The notes under the pieces are model-generated. The model saw nothing but the letters and a program-made list of their open reading frames with translations, was not told where the DNA came from and did no database searches. Both the position numbers and the translations under genes were made by a program. This document shows positions 18,475 to 33,313 of a stretch of 35,994 nt of DNA, piece after piece; the stretch's first letter is position 1; each line of letters starts with the position of its first letter. Origin of the DNA: a virus; IMG/VR virus record IMGVR_UViG_3300031933_000191, positions 1-35,994 of that record, one strand, 5' to 3'.

Positions 18475-18666
18475 ATAAACAAACCTTTTAAATGTTTTTT
18501 AATTAAGCTTTATGCTTTAAAGTAACTGCAGTTTGCACCCTCCTTTTGCACCTTTCCAACTGTTTAACTTTTTGAAATTCCTATATTTAACTTTTAGGAA
18601 TGGACAGGTTTTTAACAGACAGATTACGCGCTTTATTACTAATACACTGCCGCCATGGATTAATTA
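18475..18666. promoter_or_regulatory. Divergent late promoter region (O leftward, P rightward)
   Basis: This 192-bp gap separates the two late transcription units, so both late promoters must lie here or nearby. I see a direct repeat TTTGCACC at 18532-18539 and 18545-18552 (13-bp step), which could be a binding site for the Ogr-like activator, and no convincing -35 box on either side. Late P2-type promoters lack good -35 boxes because they depend on the activator. An AAAAGG-type ribosome site precedes O. Confidence 0.5.
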
Positions 18667-21835: not shown

Positions 21836-22293
21836 TGGGATGGCTTAAAACACTGGTTTCATTCATCACAAACCCAATAGCCGACTTAACCGGCGGCTAT
21901 GTTGAGCGCAAACGCATAGCGGCAGAAATGGCCGCCGATGTAGCGCGCGCTGAAAACAATTTTAAAATTGCGCAGTTTGAAGCTAAAGCAAGGCGCTGTA
22001 TGCAAGCCGAGCAAAACGATGCAGATTATGACTTTCTTGTTTTAAAGAACCGCGATAAAACCATCATGGATGAAGTGATTATTTTATTCTTTTTAGGTTT
22101 GTTTGTGTGCCACTTCATACCAGCAATGCAGCCTTATATGCAAAAAGGCTGGCAAGCCATGGGTTATGAAGGTGCGCCCTGGTACTTTGAATTTGTGATA
22201 GTGGGTATTGCCGTTTCAACCCTTGGATTAATGCGATTGTTTAGAGCATTTTGGGGAAGTAAAGGCGGCAATAAAAAAAGTGCTAGTGACTAG
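21835..22293 (+). CDS. Three-TM holin family (GTA-type) protein
   Basis: A 152-residue membrane protein. A cytoplasmic helical region (VERKRIAAEMAADVARAENN, about 23-42) precedes two clear membrane segments, VIILFFLGLFVCHFIPAM and FEFVIVGIAVSTLGLMRLF. This arrangement resembles the 'holin of 3TMs, for gene-transfer release' family. It may act as second holin, antiholin or spanin-like partner of the preceding gene. Its stop lies inside a bidirectional terminator hairpin shared with the convergent gene. Confidence 0.62.
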   Translation: MGWLKTLVSFITNPIADLTGGYVERKRIAAEMAADVARAENNFKIAQFEAKARRCMQAEQNDADYDFLVLKNRDKTIMDEVIILFFLGLFVCHFIPAMQPYMQKGWQAMGYEGAPWYFEFVIVGIAVSTLGLMRLFRAFWGSKGGNKKSASD

Positions 22294-22304
22294 CTAGCGC
22301 TTTT
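22276..22304. terminator. Bidirectional terminator between convergent genes
   Basis: The arms AAAAGTGCTAG (22276-22286) and CTAGCGCTTTT (22294-22304) pair with one G-T wobble around a 7-base loop. A-rich and T-rich arms at both ends would terminate the rightward late operon and the leftward small gene. Confidence 0.68.
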
Positions 22305-22539
22305 GCCAATCTATTTCTTTTATTTTCTCGACCACTTCTGCTTTAGCATTTAGCTGATTAAGTGCGCGTGAAAAGTTAGGCGCAGGAACTCCGTTTAATA
22401 GCGCCGCTGACTTTTTATCAATGCCGCGAACTAGGTGATCGCTGAGCGCAGTTTTAATATCTTCACTGCTAATTTTACACAGCGATAAAAGCAAGTTTAA
22501 TCGCTCTGGTGTTTGCGTGCCTTTAAATAAATAGACCAT
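22294..22539 (-). CDS. PapB/FocB-like helix-turn-helix DNA-binding protein
   Basis: An 81-residue, all-helical protein. ERLNLLLSLCKISSEDIKTA is followed by LSDHLVRGIDKKSAALLNG and VPAPNFSRALNQLNAKAEVV. This resembles the PapB/FocB fold of adhesin-operon regulators, in which the last two helices bind DNA. It lies alone, facing the late operon, beyond the holin genes. No strong ribosome site precedes the ATG at 22539. A regulatory role near the cos and activator region is inferred. It could be a lysogeny-expressed accessory gene because it is oriented against the late genes. Confidence 0.5.
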   Translation of the reverse strand: MVYLFKGTQTPERLNLLLSLCKISSEDIKTALSDHLVRGIDKKSAALLNGVPAPNFSRALNQLNAKAEVVEKIKEIDWQKR

Positions 22540-22819
22540 AAATAGTTATCGGTTAAGTGATAATAATTTAATAATATTTCAATATTAAATAAATAGCCAC
22601 CCATTTGATCTTTTCATTGTCACTTTGTGTCTAACATTGTCACTTTTTTGTCATTGCGATCCTTTTAAACTTTCTTTTAGATCCTTTTATTATAAGGCTT
22701 AGCCAAAAAGTGCTTGTCACTGAGGCTGTCAATTTGACGCATTTTTTGCACGAAAGCGGAAGGCGAGGAGGAGTGAATTTTTTAGCTCTTAGATTCTCAG
22801 CCAGTAGTTAAATGGTTGT
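22540..22819. other. Non-coding region with direct repeats and candidate cos
   Basis: I see no gene in this stretch. It holds a 12-bp direct repeat CATTGTCACTTT at 22615-22626 and 22635-22646, repeated GATCCTTTT words at about 22658 and 22680, and a purine-rich block at 22751-22775. The region lies just beyond the portal and lysis genes, where P2-type phages keep cos. Repeated words could be packaging or regulator sites. Confidence 0.4.
22762..22768. other. Candidate cos cohesive-end site
   Basis: GGCGAGG within a purine-rich block matches the first seven bases of the 19-base P2 cohesive end as I recall it (GGCGAGGCGGGGAAAGCAC). The position downstream of portal Q and before the activator gene agrees with P2-type maps. 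The match is short, so this is a weak call. Confidence 0.3.
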
Positions 22820-22853
22820 TTGTCATACAGTGCGCCACTGTATATAATCACAG
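22820..22853 (+). promoter_or_regulatory. SOS-type promoter: sigma70 promoter overlapping a perfect LexA box
   Basis: TTGTCA (22820-22825) and TATAAT (22843-22848) are separated by 17 bp, a near-consensus sigma70 promoter for the activator gene at 22882. The -10 lies inside CTGTATATAATCACAG (22838-22853), a perfect CTGT-N8-ACAG LexA box. A further half-site upstream makes a second dyad, TACAGTG-CGC-CACTGTA (22827-22843). LexA bound here would block RNA polymerase, so the gene should be switched on by DNA damage. Confidence 0.82.
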
Positions 22854-22881
22854 TGTATTTTATTAACGATTGGTGGTTATT

Positions 22882-23127
22882 ATGGCGCGGGTTACTTGTC
22901 CAAATTGCGAAGCTAAAGCAACAGTTACATCACGCGAAAAACAAAGCGCCCATGTGGTTAATTTATATTGCTCGTGTACTAATACCCGTGAGTGCGGCGC
23001 GACGTTTCGTGTTACCCAATCGTTTGATCACTTCTTAAATCCTCCTGTAAAAAGCACGCAACAATTAGCCGCATCGCTTATTAAAAATCTATCTCGTGAA
23101 CAGCAATTAGAATTGGTTGGCTTGTAA
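22882..23127 (+). CDS. ogr: Ogr/Delta-type zinc-finger late transcription activator
   Basis: An 81-residue activator of late promoters. The zinc-finger pattern is VTCPNCEAKATVTSRE, then VNLYCSCTNTRECGATF, with two Cys pairs spaced as in P2 Ogr (72 residues) and P4 Delta. The C-terminal helix LSREQQLELVGL may contact RNA polymerase. I chose ATG 22882 over the TTG at 22870 because GGTGG lies at suitable spacing and the zinc-finger family begins there. The gene has its own LexA-overlapped promoter and a strong terminator downstream, so it is an independent SOS-controlled unit. Confidence 0.88.
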   Translation: MARVTCPNCEAKATVTSREKQSAHVVNLYCSCTNTRECGATFRVTQSFDHFLNPPVKSTQQLAASLIKNLSREQQLELVGL

Positions 23128-23140
23128 AATACATAGCCAT

Positions 23141-23170
23141 AAAAAAGGCCGCTAATTTAGCGGCCTTTTT
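23141..23170. terminator. Bidirectional terminator between ogr and the methylase
   Basis: A near-perfect palindrome, AAAAAGGCCGCTAA and TTAGCGGCCTTTTT, flanks a one-base centre. It ends the ogr transcript and the early minus-strand operon that reaches the methylase stop. Confidence 0.85.
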
Positions 23171-23853
23171 CATTCAACTGATAATAGTGCGGCAAGTATT
23201 GTTTGGCGTTCTGCTGGCGGTAACGCTTTATAGTTTTTCGCCCAGCGCTGGGCTTTTCGCTTTATACGTTGACGATCAGTAAAATTATCGCCCGCAAAGG
23301 TATGGTAATGTACGTCACTTGGCTGGTAGTTTAGCCATATGGTTTCAGTACGAACTCCACCACGTGTCATGGCCTGAAAATCTTTGCGCCACCAATCTTT
23401 TAGCATTTCGTTATAAAGTGGGTTGGCGTAACCAGATATTATAATTTTAACTTCATCAGGGTTTTGCTTTTTTGCAGCTGTTAGCAAACGCTGGTGATCG
23501 GCTTCTGTCATTTCGTATTCATAACGGGCATTGCTGGTACGTGTTTCTGGCATGTATGGCGGATCAAGATAAAGCTGGGTTTTGCAAAATGGTTTAAAAC
23601 TCTCTAAGTACTCGATGGCACACCCGCATATTTTATTTTCTGGTACCACATAGTTAAACTTGTCTAGCATGGTTTGTGACTTATCAATTACCACGTTGTT
23701 TTTAGCCAGCGCTTTATTTTTAAATACTACGCCAGTGCCTAAGAATAGCTCGCCGTAAAATTCATGCGGTGCCATTACGTTTATAATTGCTTGGTAAACA
23801 CCACTTCCACCTTTAGCGCCTAAGTAACTTTTGTGTTGTGATTGGTTTTTCAT
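23170..23853 (-). CDS. DNA N6-adenine methyltransferase, Dam/D12 class
   Basis: A 227-residue adenine methyltransferase. SAM-binding motif region SYLGAKGGSGVYQAII (9-24) precedes GELFLGTGVVF (35-44), and the catalytic DPPY is at 97-100. The downstream region is short and has a basic tail. This is the D12 class, as in Dam; related genes are common in P2-like phages and are thought to protect phage DNA from restriction. It is the last gene of the early operon. Its upstream region carries dyad repeats, and a 19-bp word of that region also occurs inside the coding sequence (23638-23656), which suggests autoregulation. Confidence 0.86.
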   Translation of the reverse strand: MKNQSQHKSYLGAKGGSGVYQAIINVMAPHEFYGELFLGTGVVFKNKALAKNNVVIDKSQTMLDKFNYVVPENKICGCAIEYLESFKPFCKTQLYLDPPYMPETRTSNARYEYEMTEADHQRLLTAAKKQNPDEVKIIISGYANPLYNEMLKDWWRKDFQAMTRGGVRTETIWLNYQPSDVHYHTFAGDNFTDRQRIKRKAQRWAKNYKALPPAERQTILAALLSVE

Positions 23854-23872: not shown

Positions 23873-23993
23873 ACATAGCTAAATTTATCTATTGTGGCCA
23901 ACACAGTTAAATTTAACTATGCGACTAGGTGTTAACTTTAATTCTGGTACCACATAGTTATATTTGGCTGTACTCGATTGATAGTACTTCATA
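23873..23993. promoter_or_regulatory. Cluster of TAAATTTA-centred dyads upstream of the methylase
   Basis: Two dyads are visible. The first is ATAG-n-TAAATTTA-n-CTAT at 23876-23893. The second is AGTTAAATTTAACT with CACAG/CTATG extensions at about 23899-23920, one step of about 26 bp away. A degenerate third copy (ATAGTTATATTT) follows near 23955 and a half-site at 23991. Repeated palindromes before a gene are typical operators. A 19-bp word TTCTGGTACCACATAGTTA (23942-23960) recurs inside the methylase gene at 23638-23656. The regulator is unknown. Confidence 0.5.
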
Positions 23994-24023
23994 GCTAAAA
24001 ACAACTGTGCTGTTGTTTTTAGC
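23994..24023. terminator. Hairpin with T-tract, possible terminator
   Basis: A perfect 12-bp stem (GCTAAAAACAAC with GTTGTTTTTAGC) and a 6-base loop is followed by TTTTTT on the plus strand. On the minus strand it lies just after the stop of the Gln/Pro-rich gene and could attenuate transcription into the methylase. Confidence 0.6.
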
Positions 24024-31135: not shown

Positions 31136-31511
31136 GCGCTAATGCTTTTTTAATTGCACTTGGGTGCTCAATTACATCCTCGTGCCGTGCGGCTTCTTCA
31201 AAAACATCAGCCAAAAGAGCCGCCATATCATTTACACTCTTCCCTTTATTTGCCTCAGTGCGCGCAAATTTAACTGCAATACCTAACGCAATGGCCGCTA
31301 AGTCAATCGGCGTTAACGTGGTCGCGCTACTCATGGCGTTTATAATGGCAAACTCCACTTTGGCCTTTTCGTTACGCTGTGCAAAAAACTCAACTGCCAG
31401 AGCGTCAATATCAAAAGCAGGCGCATCTTTATTTTCTTTTTTTCTGCGGGCTAAATTTTCTTTGGCTGACTCTTCTGTTATCCAGCACCCTGTAAAAATG
31501 TCATTAATCAT
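31128..31511 (-). CDS. Uncharacterised small protein, cassette partner 2
   Basis: A 127-residue helical protein (Ala-rich, with FAIINAMSSATTLTPIDLAA, then VNDMAALLADVFEEAARHED). Its ATG 31511 overlaps the cro stop as ATGA. The upstream GGACGATGCAGC is the coding end of cro and is related to the leaders of the genes at 30743 and 30121. No family is recognised. It is the second gene of the early operon. Confidence 0.55.
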   Translation of the reverse strand: MINDIFTGCWITEESAKENLARRKKENKDAPAFDIDALAVEFFAQRNEKAKVEFAIINAMSSATTLTPIDLAAIALGIAVKFARTEANKGKSVNDMAALLADVFEEAARHEDVIEHPSAIKKALALI

Positions 31512-31726
31512 GCTGCATCGTCCTTGTTTGTTTTTTGGTGATCGGCAAGTAAATCGTTTACCGATACTTCACCGTTGGTTAGTTCTGAAATACGCGGGAT
31601 GTATTTCGCTGGGGCTTGGCCGAACTTATTCATCCAATCCCAAACAGAAGCTTGTTTTACACCTAACTCTCTTCCGAGCTTCGTTTGGCCCCCATAGATT
31701 TTTACAGCTTTAGTTATAGAATTCAT
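31508..31726 (-). CDS. cro: Cro-like/YdaS-type HTH regulator
   Basis: A 72-residue protein starting at ATG 31726. The HTH is clear: MNSITKAVKIYGGQTKLGRE, then LGVKQASVWDWMNKFGQ. It resembles YdaS/Cro-type repressors. It diverges from the S24-type repressor gene and heads the lytic early operon, so it is expected to repress cI and tune early transcription. Its promoter is TTGACA-17-TTTAAT (31784-31789/31761-31766, minus strand). Confidence 0.8.
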   Translation of the reverse strand: MNSITKAVKIYGGQTKLGRELGVKQASVWDWMNKFGQAPAKYIPRISELTNGEVSVNDLLADHQKTNKDDAA

Positions 31727-31882
31727 GATAAAACACCTATAAAAACAGTTTATACCTGTCATTAAATACCTGTTTAACATTGTTGTCAATACCTCTTAAA
31801 ACTGTAATCATAGGCATAAGCTTTAATTAAAGCTGTTAATATTTTACTAACCTATTGTTTTATTTATTTAAAAGGATTATTT
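31727..31882. promoter_or_regulatory. cI/cro operator region with early promoter
   Basis: Early minus-strand promoter: TTGACA (31784-31789) and TTTAAT (31761-31766) spaced by 17 bp. Between and around these are several half-sites, TACCTGTCA, TACCTGTTTA and TACCTCTTA on the plus strand and AAACAG/AAACTG relatives, consistent with operators of the divergent repressors. AAAGGA precedes the GTG start of cI. A plus-strand promoter for cI is not obvious. Confidence 0.68.
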
Positions 31883-32503
31883 GTGAGCATTGGAGAAAGA
31901 ATAAAAAAAAGACGTAAGCACTTAGGCTTAACACAGGCTGCTTTATCAGAAATGATTGGCATAGCACAGCAATCACTCCAATCTATAGAGTCAGGGAAGA
32001 TAGAAAAACCAAGAAAGATAATTGAGCTTGCTGACGCTTTAGAAACAACCCCTGAGTATTTACAGTTTGGAATTGGTGAAAACGAAAACAGTAACGTTGC
32101 ACCGGGCCCAACACTTAAAGCGGCTGTGCCATTAATTAGCTGGGTGCAAGCAGGTGCTTGGTCTGAGATTAATGAAATACGTGAATTTGATGCCGACCGC
32201 TACTTATGCCCAGTTAAGTGCAGTGATAAAACCTTTGCACTAAAAGTACAAGGCGTGAGCATGGAACCGAAGTTTTATGACGGTGATTTAATATTTGTAG
32301 ACCCTGAAGCTGAGTGCATTCATGGTTCTTACGTAGTGGCGCGCCTAGACGATAATAACGAAGCGACCTTTAAGCAGCTAATTATTGAAAGCGGCCAAAA
32401 GTTTTTAAAAGCCGCTAACCCCAACTGGCCTGAGCAACTCATACCGATTAATGGCAACTGCACCTTGGTGGGCAAAGTGGTGTTTGCTGGAAAGTCGTTT
32501 TAG
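31883..32503 (+). CDS. cI: CI-type repressor with S24/LexA-like peptidase domain
   Basis: A 206-residue repressor with GTG start 31883 preceded by AAAGGA. Residues 5-60 are a classic HTH_XRE (GLTQAALSEMIGIAQQSLQS). The C-terminal half (about 80-206) is a LexA-like self-cleavage domain: Ala90-Gly91 (WVQAGAWSE) is the probable cleavage site, Ser126 (GVSMEPKF) and Lys164 (ATFKQLI) the catalytic dyad. RecA-stimulated self-cleavage would induce the prophage after DNA damage. It diverges from cro and ends in a strong terminator. Confidence 0.9.
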   Translation: MSIGERIKKRRKHLGLTQAALSEMIGIAQQSLQSIESGKIEKPRKIIELADALETTPEYLQFGIGENENSNVAPGPTLKAAVPLISWVQAGAWSEINEIREFDADRYLCPVKCSDKTFALKVQGVSMEPKFYDGDLIFVDPEAECIHGSYVVARLDDNNEATFKQLIIESGQKFLKAANPNWPEQLIPINGNCTLVGKVVFAGKSF

Positions 32504-33216: not shown

Positions 33217-33284
33217 GCCTTATCCTTATATTTTCCATAATGCTGCAAAGGTACAGGTTAAGTTTTCGTTCAGTTTTTAACAAC

Positions 33285-33313
33285 CTGTGTATTTATACAG
33301 CCAATGCTATACT
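33285..33313 (+). promoter_or_regulatory. LexA box with extended -10 promoter
   Basis: CTGTGTATTTATACAG (33285-33300) is a perfect CTGT-N8-ACAG LexA box. It is followed by TGCTATACT, an extended -10 with TATACT at 33308-33313. The -35 position falls inside the LexA box, so LexA would block polymerase. It controls the zinc-ribbon gene that I start at 33349. The membrane-protein gene on the other side starts 69 bp away and might also be affected. Confidence 0.75.

Follow-up and report, generated by a model that had tools for sequence, protein, structure and literature searches.

A putative host LexA operator on the promoter of the Ogr-type late-gene activator in P2-like phages of marine bacteria

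Accounts of prophage induction usually centre on the immunity switch, acting either through cleavage of CI or through LexA-controlled antirepressors, and phage genes under LexA are familiar from 186 tum, the Gifsy antirepressors, CTXphi and GIL01. The locus described here raises the question of whether the host damage sensor may also be placed directly on a late-gene activator. The window (the whole stretch of DNA analysed, 35,994 bases) is the record of a P2-like phage of marine Pseudoalteromonas, and the product of its ogr gene (Table 1) matches the Ogr_Delta family (PF04606; E 8.5e-13) with 48.5 bits, above the curated cut-off of 26.3, as well as PHROG 603 (transcriptional regulator). This protein is ~90% identical to the Ogr of Pseudoalteromonas phages ACA1, ACA2, C5a and PY3, and its close chromosomal relatives are found in Pseudoalteromonas. 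The gene is solitary, lying between two leftward genes, one for a PapB-like regulator and one for a DNA methylase, and is followed by a candidate terminator that was read by eye and was not listed by the terminator scan. Tandem CATTGTCACTTT repeats (22615-22646, 20-base spacing) lie upstream of the PapB-like gene (22294-22539) and are perhaps its operator, while four imperfect 20-base repeats of the ACATAGCTAAATTTATCTAT type (23873-24008) lie in the intergenic stretch before the methylase gene.

Table 1. Positions of features in the window that bear on the control of ogr.
Feature	Position	Strand	Remarks
TTCCTA-N11-TAGGAA dyad, putative Ogr binding site	18578-18600		between divergent late operons
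ogr promoter, sigma70-type	22820-22848	+	-35 TTGTCA 22820-22825, 17-bp spacer, -10 TATAAT 22843-22848
Extra dyad TACAGTGCGCCACTGTA, ACAG-N7-CTGT	22826-22842	+	fills ogr promoter spacer; probable CI operator
LexA operator (putative) CACTGTATATAATCACAGTG	22836-22855	+	core CTGT-N8-ACAG 22838-22853, overlaps -10
ogr, Ogr/Delta-type late-gene activator, 81 aa	22882-23127	+	four-cysteine zinc finger; PF04606
Probable intrinsic terminator 3' of ogr, AAAAAAGGCCGCTAATTTAGCGGCCTTTTT	23141-23170	+	read from sequence by eye
YdaS/Cro-like regulator, divergent from CI	31508-31789	-	Pfam YdaS_toxin 1.4e-19, weak P22_Cro
ACAG-N7-CTGT site in CI/YdaS switch	31745-31759		sole other such site in window
Phage immunity repressor CI	31883-32503	+	HTH_3 + Peptidase S24 (Pfam); PHROG 4; QAG|AW cleavage motif read by eye

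The initial annotation had described a near-consensus promoter overlapping a perfect LexA box just before the Ogr-like gene, and both elements were confirmed. The promoter carries 11 of the 12 sigma70 consensus bases and is the top promoter-like match within 22200-23250. The LexA core CTGTATATAATCACAG is an exact CTGT-N8-ACAG dyad lying on the -10, 29 bp from the ogr start, and widens to CACTGT...ACAGTG; counted by eye, the resulting 20-mer agrees with the E. coli consensus at 15 of 20 positions. The window holds just two such cores (0.30 expected by chance). The box at ogr, taken alone, is only mildly improbable as a chance occurrence; where it sits on the promoter, together with how well it is conserved, puts it far beyond chance. 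The other core (33285-33300) belongs to a LexA-like box, ACCTGTGTATTTATACAGCC (33283-33302, + strand), upstream of a small ORF (33304/33349-33636) of no recognised family, relatives of which were found only in L023 and L054 at 36% identity.

Conservation in related prophages, the check that the initial annotation had called for, was strongly positive in three lineages. A position weight matrix (PWM) trained on E. coli boxes and on four host lexA boxes detected a box upstream of ogr in 55/56 Pseudoalteromonas loci, where chance would give 0.4% per 250 bp, in 50/54 K139-like loci and in 77/80 phiO18P-like loci. The box is lost or altered in a few loci (L056, L119, L124). By the same matrix no box was found upstream of ogr in 80 186/P2-like or 79 ev239-like loci, and just two were found among 79 (Pseudomonas) phi3-like loci. 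Key counts were repeated with the bare patterns CTGT-N8-ACAG and CTG-N10-CAG and gave the same picture, CTGT-N8-ACAG occurring in 43/45, 40/47 and 51/73 distinct 120-bp upstream regions of the Pseudoalteromonas, K139-like and phiO18P-like loci respectively (background in random stretches of the same loci, 0.08-2.2%). Across 57 loci including the window, which reduce to 44 distinct upstream regions of 110 bp, the promoter keeps its -35, its -10 and the 17 bp between them, and 15 of the 16 positions in the core show no change or a change in one sequence only, the exception being position 12; in Pseudoalteromonas this conservation is partly due to the -10 and to sequence relatedness. The promoter spacer upstream of the core is near random over the same regions. 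Divergent Ogr proteins on Pseudoalteromonas chromosomes retain the box, and in relatives of K139 and phiO18P both the centre of the box and its position relative to the start codon differ, which argues for retention of the dyad and not of one particular -10. In a tree built from a short alignment of 93 Ogr proteins, the box trait appears strongly clustered, requiring 5 changes compared with 31.4 when labels were shuffled.

In Salinivibrio SMHB1-type phages the box lies ~245 bases before the matched Ogr domain, and the annotated SMHB1 gene begins upstream of that domain, ~57 bases after the box. Long Ogr proteins, like P4 Delta, are encoded by Enterovibrio phages and probably by Salinivibrio SMHB1 phages (L060 / G101:C199:45198-45506, L103), with a LexA-like box upstream here too; two Ogr domains were found in the Enterovibrio protein. 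A second strong LexA box is present in 52/54 K139-like loci ~520 bases after the ogr start (L137), ~40 bases before a small convergent gene adjoining ogr (K139 orf12, 81 aa). The ev239-like phages have no box at ogr itself and carry a strong one in 56/79 loci ~471 bases after the ogr start (L282), ~40 bases before a small convergent 68-aa ORF adjoining ogr.

Which protein reads the box was approached through the host operators, which were read in six Pseudoalteromonas genomes, the window's own genome being known only as a virus record. Each of the six has two LexA boxes before lexA; one of them, CTGTATATACTCACAG, is one base off the 16-bp phage core, and TACTGTATGAAATCACAGTA or a near variant lies upstream of recA, so that the motif at ogr matches that of the host lexA and recA operators. 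The box is common to phages whose immunity repressors are of at least two unrelated kinds, namely the window's S24-type CI and a 154-aa repressor in C5a and the ACA phages; two further loci with long flanks (L021, L051) show weak or no match to either. Even among phages with S24-class repressors the palindromes of the CI/Cro switch regions are wholly different and the box at ogr is unchanged. Since the box stays constant while the phage repressor changes, a host protein best explains the site, and it does not appear to be simply an operator of phage CI. The W-type CI uses similar half-sites (ACAG/CTGT) and could, in the window phage alone, bind the LexA box too. Taken together, conservation, the match to host operators and independence of the repressor lend good support to direct repression of ogr by LexA, as the initial annotation had read the locus. 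LexA boxes were also seen near the gene for a UmuD-like S24 protein (gp4 of ACA1 and C5a, with a homologue in L002), at the sites L002 ~9904 bases after ogr, L098 31455 and L108 2588; this accessory SOS protein is probably LexA-controlled as well.

The explanation that we hold with considerable confidence is that host LexA, sitting over the -10, holds off ogr's own near-consensus promoter until DNA damage frees it and Ogr starts the late genes. In an undamaged lysogen LexA would keep this strong promoter, and with it ogr, silent; RecA-driven cleavage of LexA would then free the promoter for synthesis of Ogr, which, judging from its family and the anatomy of the phage, would bind between the divergent late operons and switch on the capsid, tail and lysis genes. 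Cleavage of the S24-type CI would be expected from the same RecA signal. The likely Ogr site is the TTCCTA-N11-TAGGAA dyad (Table 1), which is the sole zero-mismatch copy in the window, recurs exactly, once each and in a similar location in C5a, ACA1, PY3, L002, L003, L006, L036 and L042, and was not found in L051; the activator sites of P2 and 186 sit between the equivalent genes. P4 Delta can activate the late genes of an unreplicated P2 prophage, and Ogr released from LexA control could therefore act directly on the prophage. During lytic infection of an undamaged cell the lock would need some other opening, for which we conjecture SOS triggered by rolling-circle replication or titration of LexA. 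A stronger form of the idea holds that throughout the C5a/K139/phiO18P branch host LexA, and not the immunity repressor, is the standing gatekeeper of the late genes, which would follow the SOS state even in infection, with ogr opened by rolling-circle single-stranded DNA (through activation of RecA) or by extra copies of the box (through titration of LexA). We regard this stronger form as unlikely; if true, it would offer a concrete way in which late transcription in P2-type phages could depend on replication.

The window adds a further element to the putatively LexA-controlled promoter. Because an ACAG stands 7 bases before the CTGT of the box, the 17-bp promoter spacer is itself a perfect palindrome, and the symmetry extends to an exact 8+8 bp palindrome, ATACAGTG-CGC-CACTGTAT (arms 22825-22832 and 22836-22843). 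The extra half-site that the initial annotation had noted as making a second dyad is thus real; its place in a conserved LexA operator was rejected, the half-site being restricted to the window and L002, whose two promoters are identical over 110 bp. The window's only other ACAG-N7-CTGT site falls in the CI/YdaS switch, and in 914 kb of loci the triple ACAG-N7-CTGT-N8-ACAG is confined to two ogr promoters, those of the window and L002, and to the CI switches of L002, L028 and L046. The extra dyad is probably an operator of phage CI, its right half also belonging to the LexA box, and at the ogr promoter of these two phages LexA and CI may compete or act jointly. CI would then probably also sit on this promoter, giving two SOS-sensitive locks that must both be released, which would extend rather than displace the LexA explanation. 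The exact palindrome within the spacer, the confinement of the window's N7 pairs to the ogr promoter and the CI switch, and the presence of the triple geometry at CI switches of the phage's own immunity type all favour such a double lock. On the other hand, two near-identical promoters count as a single evolutionary event, the full triple is missing from the window's own switch, which has just the N7 pair, and L028, L046, L007 and L010 have a CI switch of the window's type yet lack the extra half-site at ogr; overall we place the double lock slightly below an even chance.

Could the whole composite instead be an operator of CI, with LexA playing no part? The 186 promoter pB is annotated as CI-repressed, and the ACAG/CTGT half-sites of the W-type switch, together with the restricted distribution of the triple, would fit such a reading. 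CTGT-N8-ACAG is nevertheless invariant in phages with the unrelated C5a/ACA repressor and with CI classes whose switch operators differ, it is also present in Vibrio and Aeromonas phages, and the extra half-site is missing from the four relatives just named. CI as the sole regulator of ogr was rejected on the invariance of the box and is, in our judgement, quite improbable.

Autoregulation, in which the dyad at ogr would be Ogr's own site, is more improbable still. The P2 Ogr/Delta sites are TGT/ACA dyads, loosely similar in half-site; however, the spacing here is N8, against N12 in P2, and neither a P2-type TGT-N12-ACA copy nor a LexA-type box occurs in the late intergenic region. The likely late site differs from the box and has no copy upstream of ogr, making autoregulation unlikely, and it was rejected on these grounds. 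We give equally little credence to conservation of the -10 alone with coincidental or recently inherited flanks: TATAAT does fall within the box and many Pseudoalteromonas ogr genes are 84-99% identical, but CTGT and ACAG are as invariant as TATAAT where the spacer is not, K139/phiO18P-type phages retain these flanks around a different centre, and divergent Ogr clades keep the box.

Our analysis suggests that more than 180 of the prophage loci examined, from three marine or aquatic host groups (Pseudoalteromonas, Vibrio and Aeromonas), place the late-gene activator directly under a host damage sensor; in them virus production appears to be wired directly to host DNA damage and, in the Pseudoalteromonas set, regardless of the immunity repressor carried. 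LexA is predicted to be able to trigger or withhold late genes and lysis independently of CI, and co-resident prophages of the C5a/K139/phiO18P branch are predicted to fire together.

A search of literature lying mostly outside subscription journals turned up no account of an Ogr-type activator controlled by LexA; one, on K139 for example, may exist in those journals. In E. coli K-12 the PWM scan found no box at ogrK; one E. coli study counts ogrK among its SOS genes but saw no induction of it. That the late activator of 186 is controlled by CI is already known. Like ogr here, gene B of 186 has a dedicated promoter (pB) just before an Ogr-type activator, controlled by a repressor that loses its activity after DNA damage; the annotation of pB, however, gives CI repression and two CI sites but no LexA site, and the contrast with 186 is thus one of LexA versus CI at the late activator. 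The initial annotation had held that P2 and 186 switch on their activators by other routes; no LexA box was found in the 186/P2-like loci, and a refinement is that pB itself is annotated as a CI-repressed promoter and that Tum acts through CI. At 186 tum (p95) a LexA box likewise overlaps the -10 of a P2-family phage promoter, whereas the product there is an antirepressor acting on CI and LexA here would act on the late activator, downstream of immunity. The closest experimental relative is a P2-like prophage of E. coli whose induction runs through LexA-controlled tum and depends on the antirepressor (PMC12055606). In CTXphi, host LexA and a phage repressor jointly control phage genes at rstA/rstR (PMC3323433), as may be the case in the window phage, although CTXphi is filamentous and the controlled genes are those for replication and the repressor rather than a late-gene activator. 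In GIL01 of Bacillus thuringiensis, phage promoters are under direct repression by host LexA, as is proposed here, whereas LexA at its promoter P1 needs gp7 and a phage-encoded LexA homologue activates the lytic genes (PMC4551915, PMC6182141). The nearest phages, ACA1, ACA2, C5a and PY3, share with the window the closely related Ogr and, in the three examined (C5a, ACA1 and PY3), the same box at ogr; the paper describing ACA1 and ACA2 discusses SOS only via gp4 and the antirepressor gp1, not ogr (PMC10612066). ACA1 and C5a differ from the window phage in their unrelated immunity repressor.
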